Below are positions 15,970-23,558 of a DNA stretch of 45,454 bases, piece by piece. Each line of letters starts with the position of its first letter. Positions within the stretch are counted from its first letter, which is position 1. The stretch is taken from assembly GCA_002841975.1 (NCBI GenBank), contig PHBQ01000011.1:1-45454 (forward strand). The letters are read 5' to 3'. Below the pieces are notes generated by a model, which searched no databases, was not told the DNA's origin, and was given only the letters and a program-made list of their open reading frames with translations. Both the position numbers and the translations under genes were made by a program. The DNA is from Candidatus Cloacimonetes bacterium HGW-Cloacimonetes-1 (GTDB taxonomy: Bacteria; Cloacimonadota; Cloacimonadia; Cloacimonadales; Cloacimonadaceae).

Positions 15970-17043
15970 TTATTGACGGATCTGGACTTTGGTGCCGTCT
16001 TCGAGGTTTTCGGTTCCGCTCACGACGATGTTTTCACCGATTTCGACTCCCGAAAGGAGTACCACATTTTCACCAATGATGTTGCCCAGCACCACCAGAC
16101 GACGCTCTGCGGTACCCTTGTCGTTGATGATATACACATAGTTTTTATCAAATTCTTTTACGATGTTGGTAATCTGGGTAAAGAGCAGATCGGTATGGCG
16201 TTTACTGAGGATCTGAGCCGAGACCACCATGCCGGGTAAGAGCTTCCCATTGTTGCGAATCTCGATCTCGAGAGGATAGGTGGCACTATTGGGCAAGGGA
16301 CTGATCCCAAAGCCGCGCAAGCTGCCCTTGAAAGGCTCTGTGATCCCGGAATAGGTCACTATTGCCGGTTGTCCTCTCTTCAGCTTCGTGATCTGGCTTT
16401 CACCCACTCCGGACTTCATAATCAAAGTCTTGGCATCGGTGATCATAGCTATCGGTTGTCCGGGGTTGATATACTGTCCACTGGAGACCAGCAGATTGGA
16501 GATCATGCCACTTTCCGGAGCTGCCAGATAGGAATTTTCCATGGCTTTCTTGGCAGCTTCCAGTCCGGCTTTGGCACCGTCCAATCCTGCTTTGGCACCT
16601 TTGATCCCGGAGAGGGCGTTATTGTATTCCGCTTCGGAGATCAGGTTGCGTTTCCGGGATTGCTCGGCGTAGCTAAAGTTCTTGGTGGCATTGTCGTAAG
16701 CCGACTGAGCAGAGAGTAAGCCCGCTTCGGCTTGATCCAGCCGGATACGATAGATATCGTTATCGACTGCTCCGATGCGTTCGCCTTTGCTGACGCTATC
16801 TCCCAGTTTTTTGTAAAGATTCATGATGCGTCCGCTGGTTTCACTGCTCATGGTCACTTCGGTGAGCCCTTCCAGCTTGCCGGAGACGGTGATATATTCG
16901 TCCAGAGACCGTGAGTTCAGAGCTTCGATCATCACGGGTTGGGTATCTTCTCCACCGGGTTTGGCTGCTTTGGGGGCAGCTTTTTTACCGCAAGCGGTCA
17001 AGGCTAATACTATTATCATGCTTATCAGGATATATTTTTTCAT
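15970..17043 (-). CDS. RND periplasmic adaptor lipoprotein (membrane fusion protein)
   Basis: A 357-residue HlyD/AcrA-type adaptor linking the RND pump to the outer-membrane channel. It has a lipoprotein signal with lipobox LTAC (Cys18), so it is anchored by lipid. A lipoyl/barrel-sandwich half (SGRIMNLYKKLGDSVSKGE) is followed by an alanine-rich helical hairpin (about 100-170). The second lipoyl half has LAAPESGMISNLLVSSGQYI, and beta-barrel and membrane-proximal domains complete it. Its start overlaps the stop of the TolC-family gene by one base, so the two are coupled. Confidence 0.92.
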   Translation of the reverse strand: MKKYILISMIIVLALTACGKKAAPKAAKPGGEDTQPVMIEALNSRSLDEYITVSGKLEGLTEVTMSSETSGRIMNLYKKLGDSVSKGERIGAVDNDIYRIRLDQAEAGLLSAQSAYDNATKNFSYAEQSRKRNLISEAEYNNALSGIKGAKAGLDGAKAGLEAAKKAMENSYLAAPESGMISNLLVSSGQYINPGQPIAMITDAKTLIMKSGVGESQITKLKRGQPAIVTYSGITEPFKGSLRGFGISPLPNSATYPLEIEIRNNGKLLPGMVVSAQILSKRHTDLLFTQITNIVKEFDKNYVYIINDKGTAERRLVVLGNIIGENVVLLSGVEIGENIVVSGTENLEDGTKVQIRQ

Positions 17044-18395
17044 TATTCCTCCGTGTCTCCGTTTATCAGGTTTGTTAACATTCTGGGATTATCCGTACCC
17101 AAGGCTTGCAAGAGAGCAGTCTTGCTCTTCAGCATTGAATACATGGAGTTTGTGAGCGCAGTACGGGCAGACATCACCATCAGCTCTGCATCCAGCATAT
17201 CACCGGCACTCAGCATATTGTTGCGAAAGCGTTCCTGTAATTGGCGATAGCTTTCTTCGGAATAGGACAAAGCCAGGGTGGCGGCATTGACTTGCTTGAC
17301 GTTGCTGATCAGCGCCAAAACAGAGGATTCCACCCCCAGGCGGATCCCACGTTTGACGGATACCGATCCCAGCTCACTTTGCCGCATCGAGTAATACGCT
17401 TGGCGGGATGCTGCATAGTTCTTGTATTGGGGTAAAAGGGGGATCGAAGCGGACAAGATCAATTGATTGTCTGCTTCAAATTCATAGCGGTCAATTCCAT
17501 TTTCGGAATAAGTCCGGCTCCCGGTCAGCATCACTGTGGGTAAAAAGGAAGATTTGGCGATGCTGTAGGAACGCTTTGCGATCTGCACAGATTGCTCATT
17601 GATAGCGATACCAATATTGTGATCGGTGGCATAGTTTACCGCCCGGTCGATCAAAGCATCCGTCTGGGCATTATCAAAGTTCTGGAGGCTTGTCTGCACG
17701 AGGCTATTATCGGATTGATCGATCTCGACTAAGGTCGGCACTTCATCCAAATCCAGGTAATTCATCAGGCTCCGGAGTGACAGCTGCATTGCCGTGCGGG
17801 CTTGCAGGACAGATACATCCTTGGATGCTTTGTTGGACTGGAGTCGCAGCAAATCGGCATTAGAAATCAAACCATTGTCATATTTGAGCTGGGCTATCTC
17901 CAGGTTGCGGATGGCGGATTGCAGATCGAGCTCGCTGATCTTCATAATCGCCTGCATTTGCAGCGCATTCAGATACAGCTCTTCGACTTTGCTATAGAGG
18001 CTCAATTCCTGATTGCGTAAGCCCAGGCGTGCCATCTTTTCGGCGATGCCATTGATCTTGTAGGCATTCCACAGTTTGCCACCCATGTACAGCGGTTGAG
18101 AGAGGTTGAGACTGACGGCTCTGAAGTCGTGATTGAGGGTGGTAGGTGCTCCCCCGGTCTGCACCGTGGTTGCCGGATCCATATAGATGAAAGATCCGCC
18201 CAACGTCAGGGAAGGCAGCATCGAGCCCAGGGAAGCATTCTTTCCCCACTTTGCTGCTTCAAAACTTGCCTTGGCTGTCAGGTACTCGGTATTGTTTTGC
18301 AACGCCAGTGCTTTGGCTTGTTCCAAGCTCAAAGGTGCGGCGAACACAGTAATTGTAATCAGCCATTGTATTGCTATCGTAATGAATGTCTTCAC
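17043..18395 (-). CDS. TolC-family outer-membrane efflux channel
   Basis: A 450-residue outer-membrane channel protein with a signal peptide (MKTFITIAIQWLITITVFA). Two repeated outer-membrane-efflux halves can be seen, each starting with the amphipathic alanine-rich pattern of TolC (LSLEQAKALALQNNTEYLTAKASFEAAK in the first half, written here as the opening of the mature protein). The second half begins near residue 220 (DRAVNYATDHNIGIAI). It supplies the exit duct for the RND pump. It overlaps the PadR gene by four bases. Confidence 0.9.
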   Translation of the reverse strand: MKTFITIAIQWLITITVFAAPLSLEQAKALALQNNTEYLTAKASFEAAKWGKNASLGSMLPSLTLGGSFIYMDPATTVQTGGAPTTLNHDFRAVSLNLSQPLYMGGKLWNAYKINGIAEKMARLGLRNQELSLYSKVEELYLNALQMQAIMKISELDLQSAIRNLEIAQLKYDNGLISNADLLRLQSNKASKDVSVLQARTAMQLSLRSLMNYLDLDEVPTLVEIDQSDNSLVQTSLQNFDNAQTDALIDRAVNYATDHNIGIAINEQSVQIAKRSYSIAKSSFLPTVMLTGSRTYSENGIDRYEFEADNQLILSASIPLLPQYKNYAASRQAYYSMRQSELGSVSVKRGIRLGVESSVLALISNVKQVNAATLALSYSEESYRQLQERFRNNMLSAGDMLDAELMVMSARTALTNSMYSMLKSKTALLQALGTDNPRMLTNLINGDTEE

Positions 18396-18970
18396 GTAAT
18401 TTCTCCTTCCGAGATAAAGCTCTCGCTCAATCTATCCTGCACAATATCTTCCTTTAGCTCTTCCAAAGTCAGGATCACATCCTGATGAAACCGCGTACCC
18501 AATGCCTTCAGATGTTTCATGGCAAAGGGATCCACACCAGTTTTCATAAATTCAGAGCAATGGGGAGTTTTGTGCATAATTTCTATTTCAGTTATCATGC
18601 TCAGGCGTTTGTCTATCACTTGTAGCATCTCTTGCTTGGTAAATATGCGGTTTGAAAAGGACAGTGCAATCCAAAATTCATGAGGGGAGTCCTGCTCTCC
18701 GGTCAGGGATTTGTACAGCAATTTGCGCAGGTACTCCCGGCCCTTGGGACACAGGGAAAACACAGTACGCGGGGGATTGTTCCCCTCGGCAATCTGTTGC
18801 CCACAGATGTATGCGCCGCTTTCCAGGGTCTGGAGCGCTTTGTAGATGGACGGCAGCTTGATCCCCGCCCAGATGCTAAAGCGTTGCTCCGAAACCATCT
18901 GGCCGATTCTATAACCGTACATGGGCTCATTGTTCAAGAACCCCAGTACTACCATATGTGCTTTTGACAT
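18392..18970 (-). CDS. PadR-family transcriptional regulator
   Basis: A 192-residue regulator with an N-terminal winged helix. VVLGFLNNEPMYGYRIGQMV is the PadR signature, and KLPSIYKALQTLESGAYI forms the recognition region, followed by a wing with RTVFSLCPKGREYL. The C-terminal helical part (about 90-190) resembles the dimerisation arm of the longer PadR class. It is first in the operon and overlaps the channel gene by four bases. PadR proteins beside efflux genes usually repress their own operon and are released by a pump substrate; here that is inference. A candidate operator lies just upstream. Confidence 0.9.
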   Translation of the reverse strand: MSKAHMVVLGFLNNEPMYGYRIGQMVSEQRFSIWAGIKLPSIYKALQTLESGAYICGQQIAEGNNPPRTVFSLCPKGREYLRKLLYKSLTGEQDSPHEFWIALSFSNRIFTKQEMLQVIDKRLSMITEIEIMHKTPHCSEFMKTGVDPFAMKHLKALGTRFHQDVILTLEELKEDIVQDRLSESFISEGEIT

Positions 18971-19029: not shown

Positions 19030-19156
19030 TATAATAGTACTAGCATTTCGAGCAAGTTTTTTCTTCGGGATTGTGTAAAATACATCTACTTGTTTCGAGG
19101 TTGTCAGATATATTGTATCCTATGAATGTTTGGTAAAAATAGTGGGATGGGTAATT

Positions 19157-19179
19157 GGGCGAGCGCAACTCGCCCCTAC
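19157..19179 (-). repeat. REP hairpin a
   Basis: Stem GGGCGAG/CTCGCCC (7 bp) around CGCAA, followed by CTAC. Read on the minus strand this is a GTAG foot, then stem, then loop TTGCG: the layout known for REP elements recognised by RAYT transposases. Confidence 0.85.
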
Positions 19180-19288
19180 GAGGCGTGATGAAGCCCGTGA
19201 ACCAAATAGATCCCCTACGAGGTGAGTATGAAGTTAGGATGCAAACAAACAGAACCTAGATTATTTCCAGAGTATGAGATTGGTTGTT

Positions 19289-19311
19289 GTAGGGGCGGAT
19301 TGCGTCCGCCC
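19289..19311 (+). repeat. REP hairpin b
   Basis: GTAG foot (19289-19292) then stem GGGCGGA/TCCGCCC around loop TTGCG (19300-19304). Opposite orientation to hairpin a, with compensating changes in the stem (GA/TC in place of AG/CT), so the structure, not just sequence, is conserved. Confidence 0.87.
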
Positions 19312-19373
19312 AATCCATACCATGTTACAGGACGACAGACATGAAAATCGGAATGTCTCCACCCAACGGCAAT

Positions 19374-19396
19374 GTAGGGGCGGATTGCGTCCGCCC
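19374..19396 (+). repeat. REP hairpin c
   Basis: Identical in foot, stem and loop to hairpin b, and 69 bases upstream of the RAYT start. The bases after it (AAATCATC) also match those after the partial copy inside the RAYT gene. Confidence 0.87.
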
Positions 19397-19464
19397 AAAT
19401 CATCCCTTGATACATTATAGCATTATGGTAATGCAACTTACCATCATAGTGGGAGGACACTATC

Positions 19465-19980
19465 GTGAACTTTGATCCCAAGGAGCATCACAGACATTCT
19501 ATCCGGCTAAAAGGCTATGACTATTCGAGCCAGGGGGCGTATTTTGTGACTATCTGCAGTTTTGAGAAAAAGTGTATCTTTGGCAAAGTAGCGGATGGGG
19601 AAATGGCCTTGAATGAATATGGTAAACTCGTAGCAGATGAATGGATAAAATGCGGCGAAATACGCCAGGATGTCGTATTGCATGAGTTTGTGGTCATGCC
19701 CAATCATTTTCATGGGATTGTATTTCTTCACAGCGACGATGAAGCCACGGATTGCGTCCGCCCAAAATCATCGGAATTGGGGAAGATGCTGGCAGGATAC
19801 AAAGCTGCAGTGTCGTCACAGCTAAAACGATCAGGCTTTGCCGGGAATGTTTGGCAGCGAAACTACTACGAGCATATCATACGCAATGAAGAGGATTTGA
19901 ATAGCATCATAGATTACATAGCACAAAACCCACTAAACTGGTCAAAGGACAGTCTGCATACCGTACATGAGGTAGAATAG
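19465..19980 (+). CDS. REP-associated tyrosine transposase (RAYT, Y1/HUH family)
   Basis: A 171-residue single-strand DNA transposase of the IS200/Y1 superfamily, REP-associated branch. The HUH metal motif is HFH in VVMPNHFHGIVFL (His81, His83). The catalytic tyrosine is Tyr134 or Tyr135 in WQRNYYEHIIRNEEDLN, and the family tail DYIAQNPLNW follows. I use the GTG start at 19465 because GGGAGG (19451-19456) lies eight bases upstream and the family N-terminus, RHSIRLKGYDYSSQGAYFVT, needs it. REP hairpins flank it on both sides, the known context for these enzymes. Residues 95-102 (TDCVRPKS) are encoded by a partial REP sequence. The gene looks intact. Confidence 0.92.
   Translation: MNFDPKEHHRHSIRLKGYDYSSQGAYFVTICSFEKKCIFGKVADGEMALNEYGKLVADEWIKCGEIRQDVVLHEFVVMPNHFHGIVFLHSDDEATDCVRPKSSELGKMLAGYKAAVSSQLKRSGFAGNVWQRNYYEHIIRNEEDLNSIIDYIAQNPLNWSKDSLHTVHEVE
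19748..19766 (+). repeat. Partial REP copy inside the RAYT gene
   Basis: CGGATTGCGTCCGCCCAAA is identical to the loop, right stem and flank of hairpins b and c, but the GTAG foot and most of the left stem are absent. It is read in frame as part of TDCVRPKS, in the loop between the HUH motif and the helix leading to the catalytic tyrosine. Confidence 0.85.
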
Positions 19981-20002
19981 TAAAATTTGTTTCAGCCACA
20001 TT

Positions 20003-20025
20003 GGGCGAGCGCAACTCGCCCCTAC
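20003..20025 (-). repeat. REP hairpin e
   Basis: Identical stem, loop and CTAC end to hairpin a, in the same orientation, 22 bases after the RAYT stop. Hairpins a and e therefore bracket the gene as direct copies, with b and c inverted between a and the gene. Confidence 0.87.
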
Positions 20026-20088
20026 GGAGCATTCTGTCATTTTGTATTGTTTTCACAGGCTTTTTCACACCACGGACGATGGCATGGC

Positions 20089-20109
20089 ACTTCCGTGGCG
20101 ATTCCCTCG
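20089..20109 (+). repeat. Dispersed 21-nt repeat, copy 1
   Basis: A 21-base stretch (beginning ACTTCCGTGGCG, ending CCCTCG) is repeated exactly at 45411-45431. In both places the next 25 or so bases return to CACGAGGG, so that CCCTCG and CGAGGG can pair as a hairpin. Confidence 0.75.
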
Positions 20110-20119
20110 CGTGACAAGG

Positions 20120-20152
20120 GGTTCACGAGGGGATCACGAGGGGATCACGAGA
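20120..20152 (+). repeat. Three-unit 11-bp tandem repeat
   Basis: Three successive 11-base units: GGTTCACGAGG, GGATCACGAGG, GGATCACGAGA. The first unit is the right arm of the dispersed-repeat hairpin, so the tandem may have arisen by slippage at that arm. Confidence 0.8.
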
Positions 20153-20430
20153 GATTGCAGTAGGGGCGAATGGCGGTTTGACTGTATTATGATATCCGAT
20201 TTGACAGTACCGCAGTGAGAGCAATATCTCGCAACCGATTATGAAAACCAGATTCGGATTTGAAATGTTCGTAGTCCAATGGAGGAGCCCCTCGTGGGCG
20301 CATGTTGTTGACAAAGCTAGCCCTCGTGGGCGACATCCGATAGCGACGGGTTCGGAGTGCCGCAGGCACGAAGACCCTCGTGATGGTTCCACTCCCCGAT
20401 AAAGCCCTTCACGGGCGACACAATCATGCC

Positions 20431-22983
20431 CTACATCTGATTTCTGTGCTTTTTCTGAATCATTTTTAGTGCTTCAAACCACATGATACTCAGTAATCCT
20501 GCTCCCAGGCAGATAGCCAGATCGACGGCATGCAAAGGATAGAAATGGAACAAGCGGTTAAGCCCGGGAACATGGGTTATCAGTCCAATCAGCCCTAAAA
20601 CCCCTATCACCAGCCACATCATGGCAGGATTGGGAGTTTTGAGGATTTGAATCAGATTGTTTCTCCACGATCTGTTGGTAATTATCAGTCCAATATTAGA
20701 AAACACCAGTGTTGTATAGGTAAACGCCCGCACTTCATCAGTTGATCTTCCCAGTCTTAGCCCTATGAAATACACGGCTATCAGGATTGCCAGAACAGAA
20801 AATCCCTGCAGTAATGATATAAAAACCATCGATTTACCAAACAAGGGCTCATTAATACCTCTGGGAGGACGCTCCATCACATCTGCTTCTTCTTTTTCCA
20901 TCTCGAATACTACCGAACAAGCCGGATCAATAATCAGCTCCAGAAATACAATATGTATCGGCAGGAACACCAAGGGATATCCCTTGATCAAGACCGGCAG
21001 CAGAGCCATTCCTGCTATTGGCACATGAATGGACAGGATGTAGGCAATAGCTTTTTGTAGGTTGTCAAATACTCTGCGCCCCATCTTAACGGCACTGACA
21101 ATGGAAGAGAAATCATCATCGATCAGCACCAGGGAAGATGCTTCTCTGGCTACATCCGTTCCTCTTTGCCCCATCGCTATGCCAATATTGGCAGCCTTTA
21201 AGGCAGGAGCATCATTCACTCCGTCGCCTGTCATTGCCACGATCTCGCCATTTGCCTTCAGTGCTTTAACGATACGCAGCTTCTGTTCGGGCACTACTCT
21301 GGCAAATATTGTTGTATGCATAATGCGCTCTGCCAGAACATCATCGCTCATATTGTTCAGCTCTTCTCCGGTTATCACATTTTCCACTTCTTTGAGCCCA
21401 ATGGTTCTGCCAATGGCCTTTGCCGTACAGGGGTAATCGCCCGTAATCATGATAATCCTGATACCGGCTTTGTAACATTCCTGCACTGCACCCGGAACCG
21501 TATCTCTGCAAGGATCGGCAAACCCGATTAACCCGCAAAATTTGTAACTGAAACCTTCTTGCCGATCAGGAAGGTCTGGTCCTGCATAGTCGGCAATAGC
21601 CACGCCCAAGACCCTCAAGCCCTGTTCTGCCATCTCGGTTACCTTCGCTAAAACTTCCCCGGCTTTGTCCGATGCCATCCTGCACAAGCCGATAATCGCC
21701 TCCGGTGAACCCTTGGCGGCAACCCTAAATTCACCCGCGACATCAGTTTGCCACACATTGGTCATCGCTCGCAAATCATTGCTAAGGGGGTATTCCTTGA
21801 TGATTTGCCAAGCTTGAAGCTCTTGATATTTTGCCGGAATCGTATTTGTAAGTGCTTCATGAATAGCCTTTTCCATGGGATCAAAGGGGTCTTTCATGCT
21901 ACTCAGCACGCTGTTTAACAGTAATTTCTCATTCTGTGCAGGTAATTGTTTGTTTTGTTCTTTACCAATGTCGCTATAGCCATCCGCAGTCCAGATTCTT
22001 TGCACTGTCATGCGGTTGTAAGTAAGCGTCCCCGTTTTGTCTGTACACAGCACCGTTGCCGAACCCAAAGTTTCGATGGCAGGCATTCTCCTGGTGAGAA
22101 CGTTCTTGCGGGACATGCGCCAGGCACCTAAAGCCAAAAAAACGGTTAGCACCACAGGAAACTCTTCCGGAAGGATTGCCATGGCAAGAGTTAAACCGGT
22201 CAAGAAGGCTTCTATGATATTGCCACGGGTAAGGTAGTACAGAATCCCCACCAAAACACACAAACAAGCCCCAATAATCGCAATATTTTTCACTAAGCGA
22301 CCTGTTTCTTTGCTTAGCTTGGTTTCTTCTTCTTTTACCGATTGCAGTGATTTACCGATCTTGCCCAGTTCAGAAAGCTCTCCGATGGCATATACCAGCA
22401 CTATGGCATTACCGCCCACAACCAATGAGCCTGAATAGACAAAAGGCAGATCATCTCCCCCGGGCTGCACAGACTGCTTTTTGCCATCCCAAAGCTGTTT
22501 ATGCACCGGTACTGATTCGCCGGTAAGCAGTGATTCGTCGATACTTAAATTGCTGCTTTCCAATACATAGGAATCCGCAGGGACTCTATCGCCTTCCACC
22601 AGGACAAGCAAATCGTCCAAAACTACTTCCCGTCCGGGAATCCTTTGGCGAACACCTGCTCTGATTACGAGGGCTCTGGGGCTGGAGAGATCGCGTAAAG
22701 CGTCTAATGCACGTTCTGTTTTACGCTCTTGATACAATGTGATGCCCATTACCATGAACACAAAGCCTAAGAGCATCAATGCTTCCTGTAGATCGCCCAG
22801 GATCAGATAGAGGGTTCCGCAGGCTACTAAAAGCAAGAACATAGGTTCCCGGATAACGCCAAATAATATAGCCCAGATACTGCGCGCTTTGGTTGATGGT
22901 AATTCGTTGTAACCGCAACTGATGCGGCGTTGCTGCACTTCCGATTGGCTTAAGCCATGGTTGTCGTTTGTGTTCTGTGACAT
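20431..22983 (-). CDS. P2-like cation-translocating P-type ATPase
   Basis: An 850-residue ion pump with an N-terminal cation-ATPase domain (LSQSEVQQRRISCGYNELPS), actuator motif LTGESVPV, phosphorylation motif DKTGTLT (Asp315), and TGDGVNDAPALKAANIGIAMG in the hinge. The overall form is P2A-like, so calcium is the default guess. However, the membrane-four site reads PEEFP (272-276), not the PEGLP usual in calcium pumps, and the sixth helix reads LELIIDPACS, where the usual N..TD pattern is absent. The transported ion is therefore uncertain. Ribosome site AGAGGAAAG precedes the start. It stands alone, separated by repeat-rich DNA on its downstream side. Confidence 0.88.
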   Translation of the reverse strand: MSQNTNDNHGLSQSEVQQRRISCGYNELPSTKARSIWAILFGVIREPMFLLLVACGTLYLILGDLQEALMLLGFVFMVMGITLYQERKTERALDALRDLSSPRALVIRAGVRQRIPGREVVLDDLLVLVEGDRVPADSYVLESSNLSIDESLLTGESVPVHKQLWDGKKQSVQPGGDDLPFVYSGSLVVGGNAIVLVYAIGELSELGKIGKSLQSVKEEETKLSKETGRLVKNIAIIGACLCVLVGILYYLTRGNIIEAFLTGLTLAMAILPEEFPVVLTVFLALGAWRMSRKNVLTRRMPAIETLGSATVLCTDKTGTLTYNRMTVQRIWTADGYSDIGKEQNKQLPAQNEKLLLNSVLSSMKDPFDPMEKAIHEALTNTIPAKYQELQAWQIIKEYPLSNDLRAMTNVWQTDVAGEFRVAAKGSPEAIIGLCRMASDKAGEVLAKVTEMAEQGLRVLGVAIADYAGPDLPDRQEGFSYKFCGLIGFADPCRDTVPGAVQECYKAGIRIIMITGDYPCTAKAIGRTIGLKEVENVITGEELNNMSDDVLAERIMHTTIFARVVPEQKLRIVKALKANGEIVAMTGDGVNDAPALKAANIGIAMGQRGTDVAREASSLVLIDDDFSSIVSAVKMGRRVFDNLQKAIAYILSIHVPIAGMALLPVLIKGYPLVFLPIHIVFLELIIDPACSVVFEMEKEEADVMERPPRGINEPLFGKSMVFISLLQGFSVLAILIAVYFIGLRLGRSTDEVRAFTYTTLVFSNIGLIITNRSWRNNLIQILKTPNPAMMWLVIGVLGLIGLITHVPGLNRLFHFYPLHAVDLAICLGAGLLSIMWFEALKMIQKKHRNQM

Positions 22984-23558
22984 TACTTTCCTCTCAAGAT
23001 TTTATTCAGGGGGGAAGGATTATGTCGTAGGTTCAATTGCTAGTATGAGAAAGAACCTGCCGGACTATTCCTTCGTTTGGTATCCCGATTGGTTTTTCTG
23101 CCAATCCGGATAACTACGGAGGGAAGTCCCACAGTACAAATAAACTGCTGCTTATCTTATAAGCCCGGTATGCGGTGCATTATCTGCTCCGGAACCTGCT
23201 CTTCCCAGTTAGAACAATAATTTCATCTGATAGATTTGTGTCAATTTATTTAGGTATGGTCACATTGTATCGCCCTGCCGACTGTTGAGGTCTCTTGGTC
23301 ATGGTCTAGTAACTGCACACGCCTCGTGTGCACACTGTAGAGGCGACTGTGAACACGGCGAGTGAACAGGGACTCCCGTGCCATTTTTCCAGAAGAGTAG
23401 ACACACTGCCGATACGTTTAACTTCGCTAGCTATAAGGAAGCATCGCCTGTGTCGAGGGTGAGTTTAAAGGTTTACTCTGGTATTTTTACATATATATTG
23501 ACTTAATTCTCATACTGTAACGAGTGTAAAATTTACTAAACTACCAAAGGAGATCATC
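22984..23558. other. 575-base intergenic region, divergent promoters and a hairpin repeat
   Basis: No gene seen. On the minus strand TTGACA (23244-23239) could serve the P-type ATPase, but the -10 is poor and the distance long. The perfect hairpin repeat at 23309-23331 lies here. A smaller imperfect hairpin, CCGATTGG with CCAATCCGG, sits near 23087-23112. On the plus strand TTGACT (23498-23503) precedes the small membrane protein without a clear -10. Confidence 0.5.
23309..23331 (+). repeat. 23-nt hairpin repeat, copy 1
   Basis: Contains GCACACG-CCT-CGTGTGC, a seven-bp stem. The full 23 bases recur exactly at 30265-30287 in the same orientation. Confidence 0.85.

Follow-up and report, generated by a model that had tools for sequence, protein, structure and literature searches.

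A RAYT gene among GTAG hairpins

The window analyzed here, the whole 45,454-nucleotide stretch of Cloacimonadota DNA under study, contains a RAYT (TnpAREP) gene surrounded by REP hairpins (Table 1). The earlier note had described an intact Y1/HUH transposase gene amid these hairpins and this is what was found: the frame is open, its GTG start is in register with the homologues, and the HUH motif (H81-x-H83) is present together with a single catalytic tyrosine, Y151, followed four residues on by N155. In columns aligned with 49 homologues, H81, H83, W130, and N155 are invariant and Y151 is nearly so. The closest solved relative by both sequence and fold is 4er8, the E. coli TnpAREP in complex with a REP hairpin. 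The sequence match (E 5.7e-5) aligns Y151 to residue 115 of that protein, and the AlphaFold2 model of the window protein (pLDDT 86), which has the TnpAREP fold, retrieved 4er8 as its top PDB match in Foldseek (E 1.7e-7, TM 0.54-0.56). The scores obtained with NF047646 REP_Tyr_transpos (72.5 bits, cut-off 80) and Pfam Y1_Tnp (20.6, cut-off 23) lie below thresholds that are a library convention and not a biological definition; as the motif, the fold, and the REPs were all found, these low scores can be read as divergence. No C-terminal extension follows the core, the protein ending 20 residues past Y151. In the tree made here, the gene grouped with two Cloacimonadota RAYTs (support 94/97).

Table 1. 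REPs, RAYT gene, and associated repeat at the locus, in window coordinates
Feature	Position	Strand	Remarks
REP, stem version AG/CT	19157..19179	-	upstream of the RAYT gene; pattern match and fold
REP, stem version GA/TC	19289..19311	+	upstream of the RAYT gene; pattern match and fold
REP, stem version GA/TC	19374..19396	+	upstream of the RAYT gene; pattern match and fold
RAYT / TnpAREP gene, 171 aa	19465..19980	+	intact ORF, GTG start, GGGAGG before the start
Decayed REP in the RAYT gene	19741..19763	+	codons 93-100, EATDCVRP; foot GTAG to GAAG, basal GGG to CCA
REP, stem version AG/CT	20003..20025	-	downstream of the RAYT gene; pattern match and fold
~90-bp repeat copy, CACGAGGGNNTCACC core	20070..20159	+	3' end fused to the REP foot; left boundary approximate
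Decayed REP of the other (GGCGG) class	20160..20183	+	abuts the ~90-bp CACGAGGG repeat; repeat search

All four hairpins around the gene match the consensus GTAGGGGCGNNTTGCGNNCGCCC exactly and fold, with the positions and orientations previously given for them; 100 shuffles of the window yielded no match to this consensus even at 3 mismatches. Folded as single-stranded DNA (-8.8 or -8.9 kcal/mol, z -3.5 to -3.9), each consists of a GTAG foot, a 7-bp stem, and a 5-nt TTGCG loop, and in all four the stem base is made of three consecutive G-C pairs (GGG/CCC). The paired compensating changes proposed between the two stem versions, GGGCGAG/CTCGCCC and GGGCGGA/TCCGCCC, were confirmed as two compensated base pairs. 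A third version present elsewhere in the genome, GGGCGAA/TTCGCCC, is one pair away from each of them, so that the versions are connected by single compensated steps. The repeat search also showed that the outer REPs, which share one orientation, are identical over 27 nt (20000-20026 and 19154-19180). Two REP copies, at 19741-19763 inside the gene and at 20160-20183, were absent from the earlier note.

The surroundings of the locus were also explored. Genes for a PadR regulator, an outer-membrane efflux protein, and an HlyD-like protein lie at 15970-18970 on the minus strand, in an order kept in many family genomes without an adjacent RAYT. A P-type cation ATPase is encoded at 20431-22983 (minus strand), and directly upstream of it lies a NiCo riboswitch (RF02683, 39.3 bits, 23122-23213, minus strand), suggesting that the ATPase is a nickel/cobalt exporter. 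The riboswitch was the sole match in the Rfam search, in which no REP-like family was found. A 103-nt repeat at 20321-20423 recurs in this genome at C87, C40, and C2 with 89-97% identity, and weaker matches occur in family genomes. Either the PadR-OEP-HlyD genes or the ATPase are retained in the family genomes, at ~40-60% protein identity and never adjoining a RAYT, and a search among these genomes found no empty site at the nucleotide level.

REPs and RAYTs across the genome and the family

The source genome (G000, 2.78 Mb in 128 contigs) contains 13 copies of the strict TTGCG hairpin, nine of them outside the window, with none for the reversed-pattern control. These comprise six AG/CT, three GA/TC, and four AA/TT stems, one of the latter with an unpaired position. 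The count rises to 21 when up to three mismatches are allowed and to 34 REPs with a looser loop pattern, the remainder being mainly of a 24-nt GGCGG/GGTGG class. When the copies were mapped against genes, 33 of 36 (35 REPs elsewhere in the genome and the copy inside a paralogue of the RAYT) fell outside ORF proxies, which are crude and missed the paralogue's own internal REP. This paralogue is a second intact RAYT (C111:30526-31041) with 53% identity to the window RAYT. It carries GGCGG/GGTGG REPs on both sides, the outer ones sharing one orientation, and an intact one inside the gene. The window RAYT goes with TTGCG hairpins and the second RAYT with a different class, relating REP class to RAYT type; the further copies and the company that REPs keep with RAYTs are both as the earlier note had expected. 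A RAYT fragment with ~48 aa of the C-terminal part recognizable (C27:16050-16278) adjoins a REP of a third loop type, GTAGGGGCGAACCTGTGTGTTCGCCC, of which one further example lies at C122.

The decayed copy at 20160 adjoins a repeat of ~90 bp whose CACGAGGGNNTCACC core occurs at no fewer than 74 exact places in the genome, and at 210 sites when 1 mismatch is allowed (against 1 site for the reversed pattern). At around 20 places, a REP or REP remnant of one class or the other begins exactly at the 3' end of this repeat; where no REP follows, the repeat ends in GCAAGG, GCATGG, or a like sequence. As two REP classes are found at one junction, repeated insertion at, or exchange of, the 3' end of the repeat is suggested. 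We considered that the repeat might belong to the other Y1 transposase genes and rejected this, as it is not beside those examined; the exception is one copy ~400 bp from the Y1 transposase gene L036.

Among 37 family genomes, the four with a close RAYT all have at least 3 such REPs versus three of the 33 non-carriers (Fisher p 5e-4, not corrected for ancestry), and the REP version differs from one carrier to the next. With the strict pattern the carriers have 34 (G000), 16 (G025), at least 59 (G030), and 3 (G002) REPs, and the only non-carriers to reach three are G001 (94), G021 (3), and G023 (3). The link between RAYT and REP number is not tight, as G001 has its REPs without a detected RAYT and G002 has a RAYT with so few. 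The three REPs of G002 all lie beside its RAYT (L138, C88:56188-56986), possibly a REPtron that has not spread. The 94 hairpins of G001 are of the form GTAGGGGCG, and no RAYT of this kind was detected in that genome, which is 91% complete.

The REP inside the gene

The relic inside the gene, GAAGCCACGGATTGCGTCCGCCC, differs from GTAGGGGCGGATTGCGTCCGCCC by four substitutions and no indel, all in the first seven bases, which break the foot and the three basal pairs and spare the loop and the inner part of the stem. Over its last 16 nt the match is exact (chance expectation 0.04 for a 16-mer with up to 2 mismatches), and its stem version is GA/TC, as in the two upstream plus-strand copies, with which the repeat search groups positions 19731-19766. 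The relic matches its own flanks at 19/23 positions, compared with at most 0.70 in 300 codon shuffles. It sits in frame between HuH and Y, and the residues that it encodes lie in the loop that links the HUH strand to the following helix, where confidence in the AlphaFold2 model is lowest (pLDDT below 50 for residues 93-97). As any change of the foot abolishes binding and cleavage in E. coli (PMC8266576), the RAYT is predicted not to recognize the GAAG relic. This calls for some caution, as the Stenotrophomonas and Marinomonas TnpAREP are more tolerant than the E. coli enzyme (PMC8266576).

An intact internal GTAG hairpin was found between HUH and W in 68 of the 80 best homologues, a fraction that may be somewhat biased because their ranking was based on similarity to the window protein; they span Cyanobacteria, Chloroflexota, Bacteroidota, Nitrospirota, Pasteurellaceae, and others. 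Nine of the other 12 have a decayed or altered-foot internal copy, each scoring better than every shuffle. The internal hairpins of these relatives occur in several reading frames and in both orientations, never with the TAG of the forward foot in frame. Among the 41 loci having both internal and flanking REPs, 27 showed a match between the two (at least 15 of 16 arm positions) versus 2.6 expected, the mean of 5000 permutations whose maximum was 9. The several frames, both orientations, and match to the locus's own flanks point to the DNA, and not the peptide, as what stays constant. REP type tracks RAYT ancestry weakly, with a rank correlation of 0.107 between REP similarity and RAYT identity (44 of 2000 permutations as high); taken with the high internal-flank match, this argues that the internal REP follows the local REPs and not the protein lineage. 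Three foot-form labels, distinguishing single- and double-foot REPs, changed 34 times on the tree versus 39 when shuffled, indicating that foot form turns over fast.

Within the Cloacimonadota family, the internal REP is intact in two RAYT genes (L034 and L051) and decayed in that of the window. No intact internal hairpin was found in the RAYTs of G030 (L137) and G002 (L138), which, like L140 and L145, are minus-strand loci examined separately from the 80. The case for an internal REP being necessary for spread is weakened by G030, a genome rich in REPs whose RAYT lacks such a copy; unless a different enzyme is responsible there, REPs can be abundant without it. We tentatively raise the possibility, doubtful at present, that the internal REP of the subclass is a working DNA hairpin, repeatedly rewritten, that may serve as a donor or landing site or as a self-limiting decoy, the window copy having escaped or lost this role. 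If this were true, the decoy would act in the gene's own single strand.

A probable REPtron and its known relatives

Very probably, the locus is a REPtron in which a TnpAREP (RAYT) of the subclass 2.4 type is paired with cognate REPs having a single foot. According to Quentin et al. 2018 (PMC6006769), the REPs of this subclass have three basal G-C pairs, and its hallmark is the in-frame insertion of REPs into the gene, between the HuH and Y motifs. Internal REPs are described as unique to subclass 2.4. Judged by this published description, the window RAYT fits subclass 2.4 in the features compared: the in-frame internal REP, the three G-C pairs, and the lack of a C-terminal extension. Starting from the gene, hairpins, genome-wide copies, internal relic, and pairing of REP class with RAYT observed here, the binding, cleavage, and copying steps can be proposed by analogy with the TnpAREP of E. 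coli, Stenotrophomonas, and Marinomonas (PMC8266576). The RAYT would bind REPs in single-stranded DNA, such as the lagging-strand template, at their GTAG foot and hairpin, cut beside the hairpin with Y151, and paste REPs elsewhere, so that REPs would gather around the gene and spread thinly in intergenic DNA. One REP also occupies the part of the gene that encodes what would be a permissive surface loop; in most relatives this internal copy would share in the local turnover, since it resembles the local flanking REPs, and in the window it has decayed to a recognizable relic.

One could instead see the REPs as hairpins maintained by the host at the RNA or DNA level (mRNA-end stabilizers, terminators, or supercoiling sites), their proximity to the RAYT being incidental. 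The genomic REPs are indeed intergenic, many of them between tandem genes. This is nevertheless very improbable as four of the ~40 genomic REPs (six with the relics) lie within ~1 kb around the window RAYT, the second RAYT is likewise surrounded, by another REP class, and internal and flanking copies agree locus by locus. It is also hardly credible that 19157-20025 moves whole as an insertion sequence of the IS200/IS605 type, bounded by the outer REPs: the genome has no second full copy, solitary REPs are found all over it, flanking REPs are oppositely oriented at other RAYT loci, and the site coincides with a break in synteny and has no empty counterpart for comparison. The identity and common orientation of the outer REPs would favor such an element, as would the single orientation shared by those of the paralogue.

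The locus might also be a former REPtron, now inactive, with a gene kept by chance, as the internal REP is destroyed in foot and stem and the 20160 copy and several genomic copies have decayed. We find this unlikely, as the frame is open, the catalytic and invariant residues are kept at ~50% identity to homologues, and the four flanking REPs are perfect. The RAYT of G030 has no internal REP although its genome counts at least 59 REPs, which indicates moreover that a RAYT may stay active after losing the internal copy. Returning to the REPtron, the claim of a complete REP-RAYT unit stands for a RAYT with cognate REPs, which is well supported. Calling the unit complete and probably active in the recent past goes beyond the evidence, as the internal REP is ruined, a second full copy is missing, near relatives offer no comparison of occupied and empty sites, and short identical hairpins are undatable.

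With this analysis, a REPtron type that has received little study is now also documented in a family of Cloacimonadota. The genome holds two paralogous RAYTs, each with a REP class of its own, which provides a natural test of specificity, and the known oddity of REPs inside their own transposase gene is turned into a testable question on REP copying. What is new here are the numbers on the internal REP: its near-universality, multiple frames, flank match, and decay or loss in one family.

GTAG-tagged REPs form a superfamily of palindromes that are mostly intergenic, sometimes intragenic, and sometimes joined to unrelated repeats in mosaic structures (Di Nocera et al. 2013, PMC3733652). The REPs described here share these features; no description of the ~90-bp CACGAGGG partner was found in the sections consulted. 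The locus resembles the E. coli TnpAREP/REP system (4ER8) and the Sm and Mb REPtrons (PMC8266576) in fold, catalytic residues, GTAG foot, and REPs both flanking the gene and dispersed. However, the E. coli REPs have bulged stems, unlike those of the window, and the E. coli, Sm, and Mb enzymes belong to groups other than subclass 2.4. Compared with the subclass 2.4 described before (PMC6006769), the window differs by its Cloacimonadota host, its TTGCG loop, and an internal REP reduced to a relic, its foot and basal stem ruined. It is solidly a new Cloacimonadota example of an already described system, and not one new in kind.
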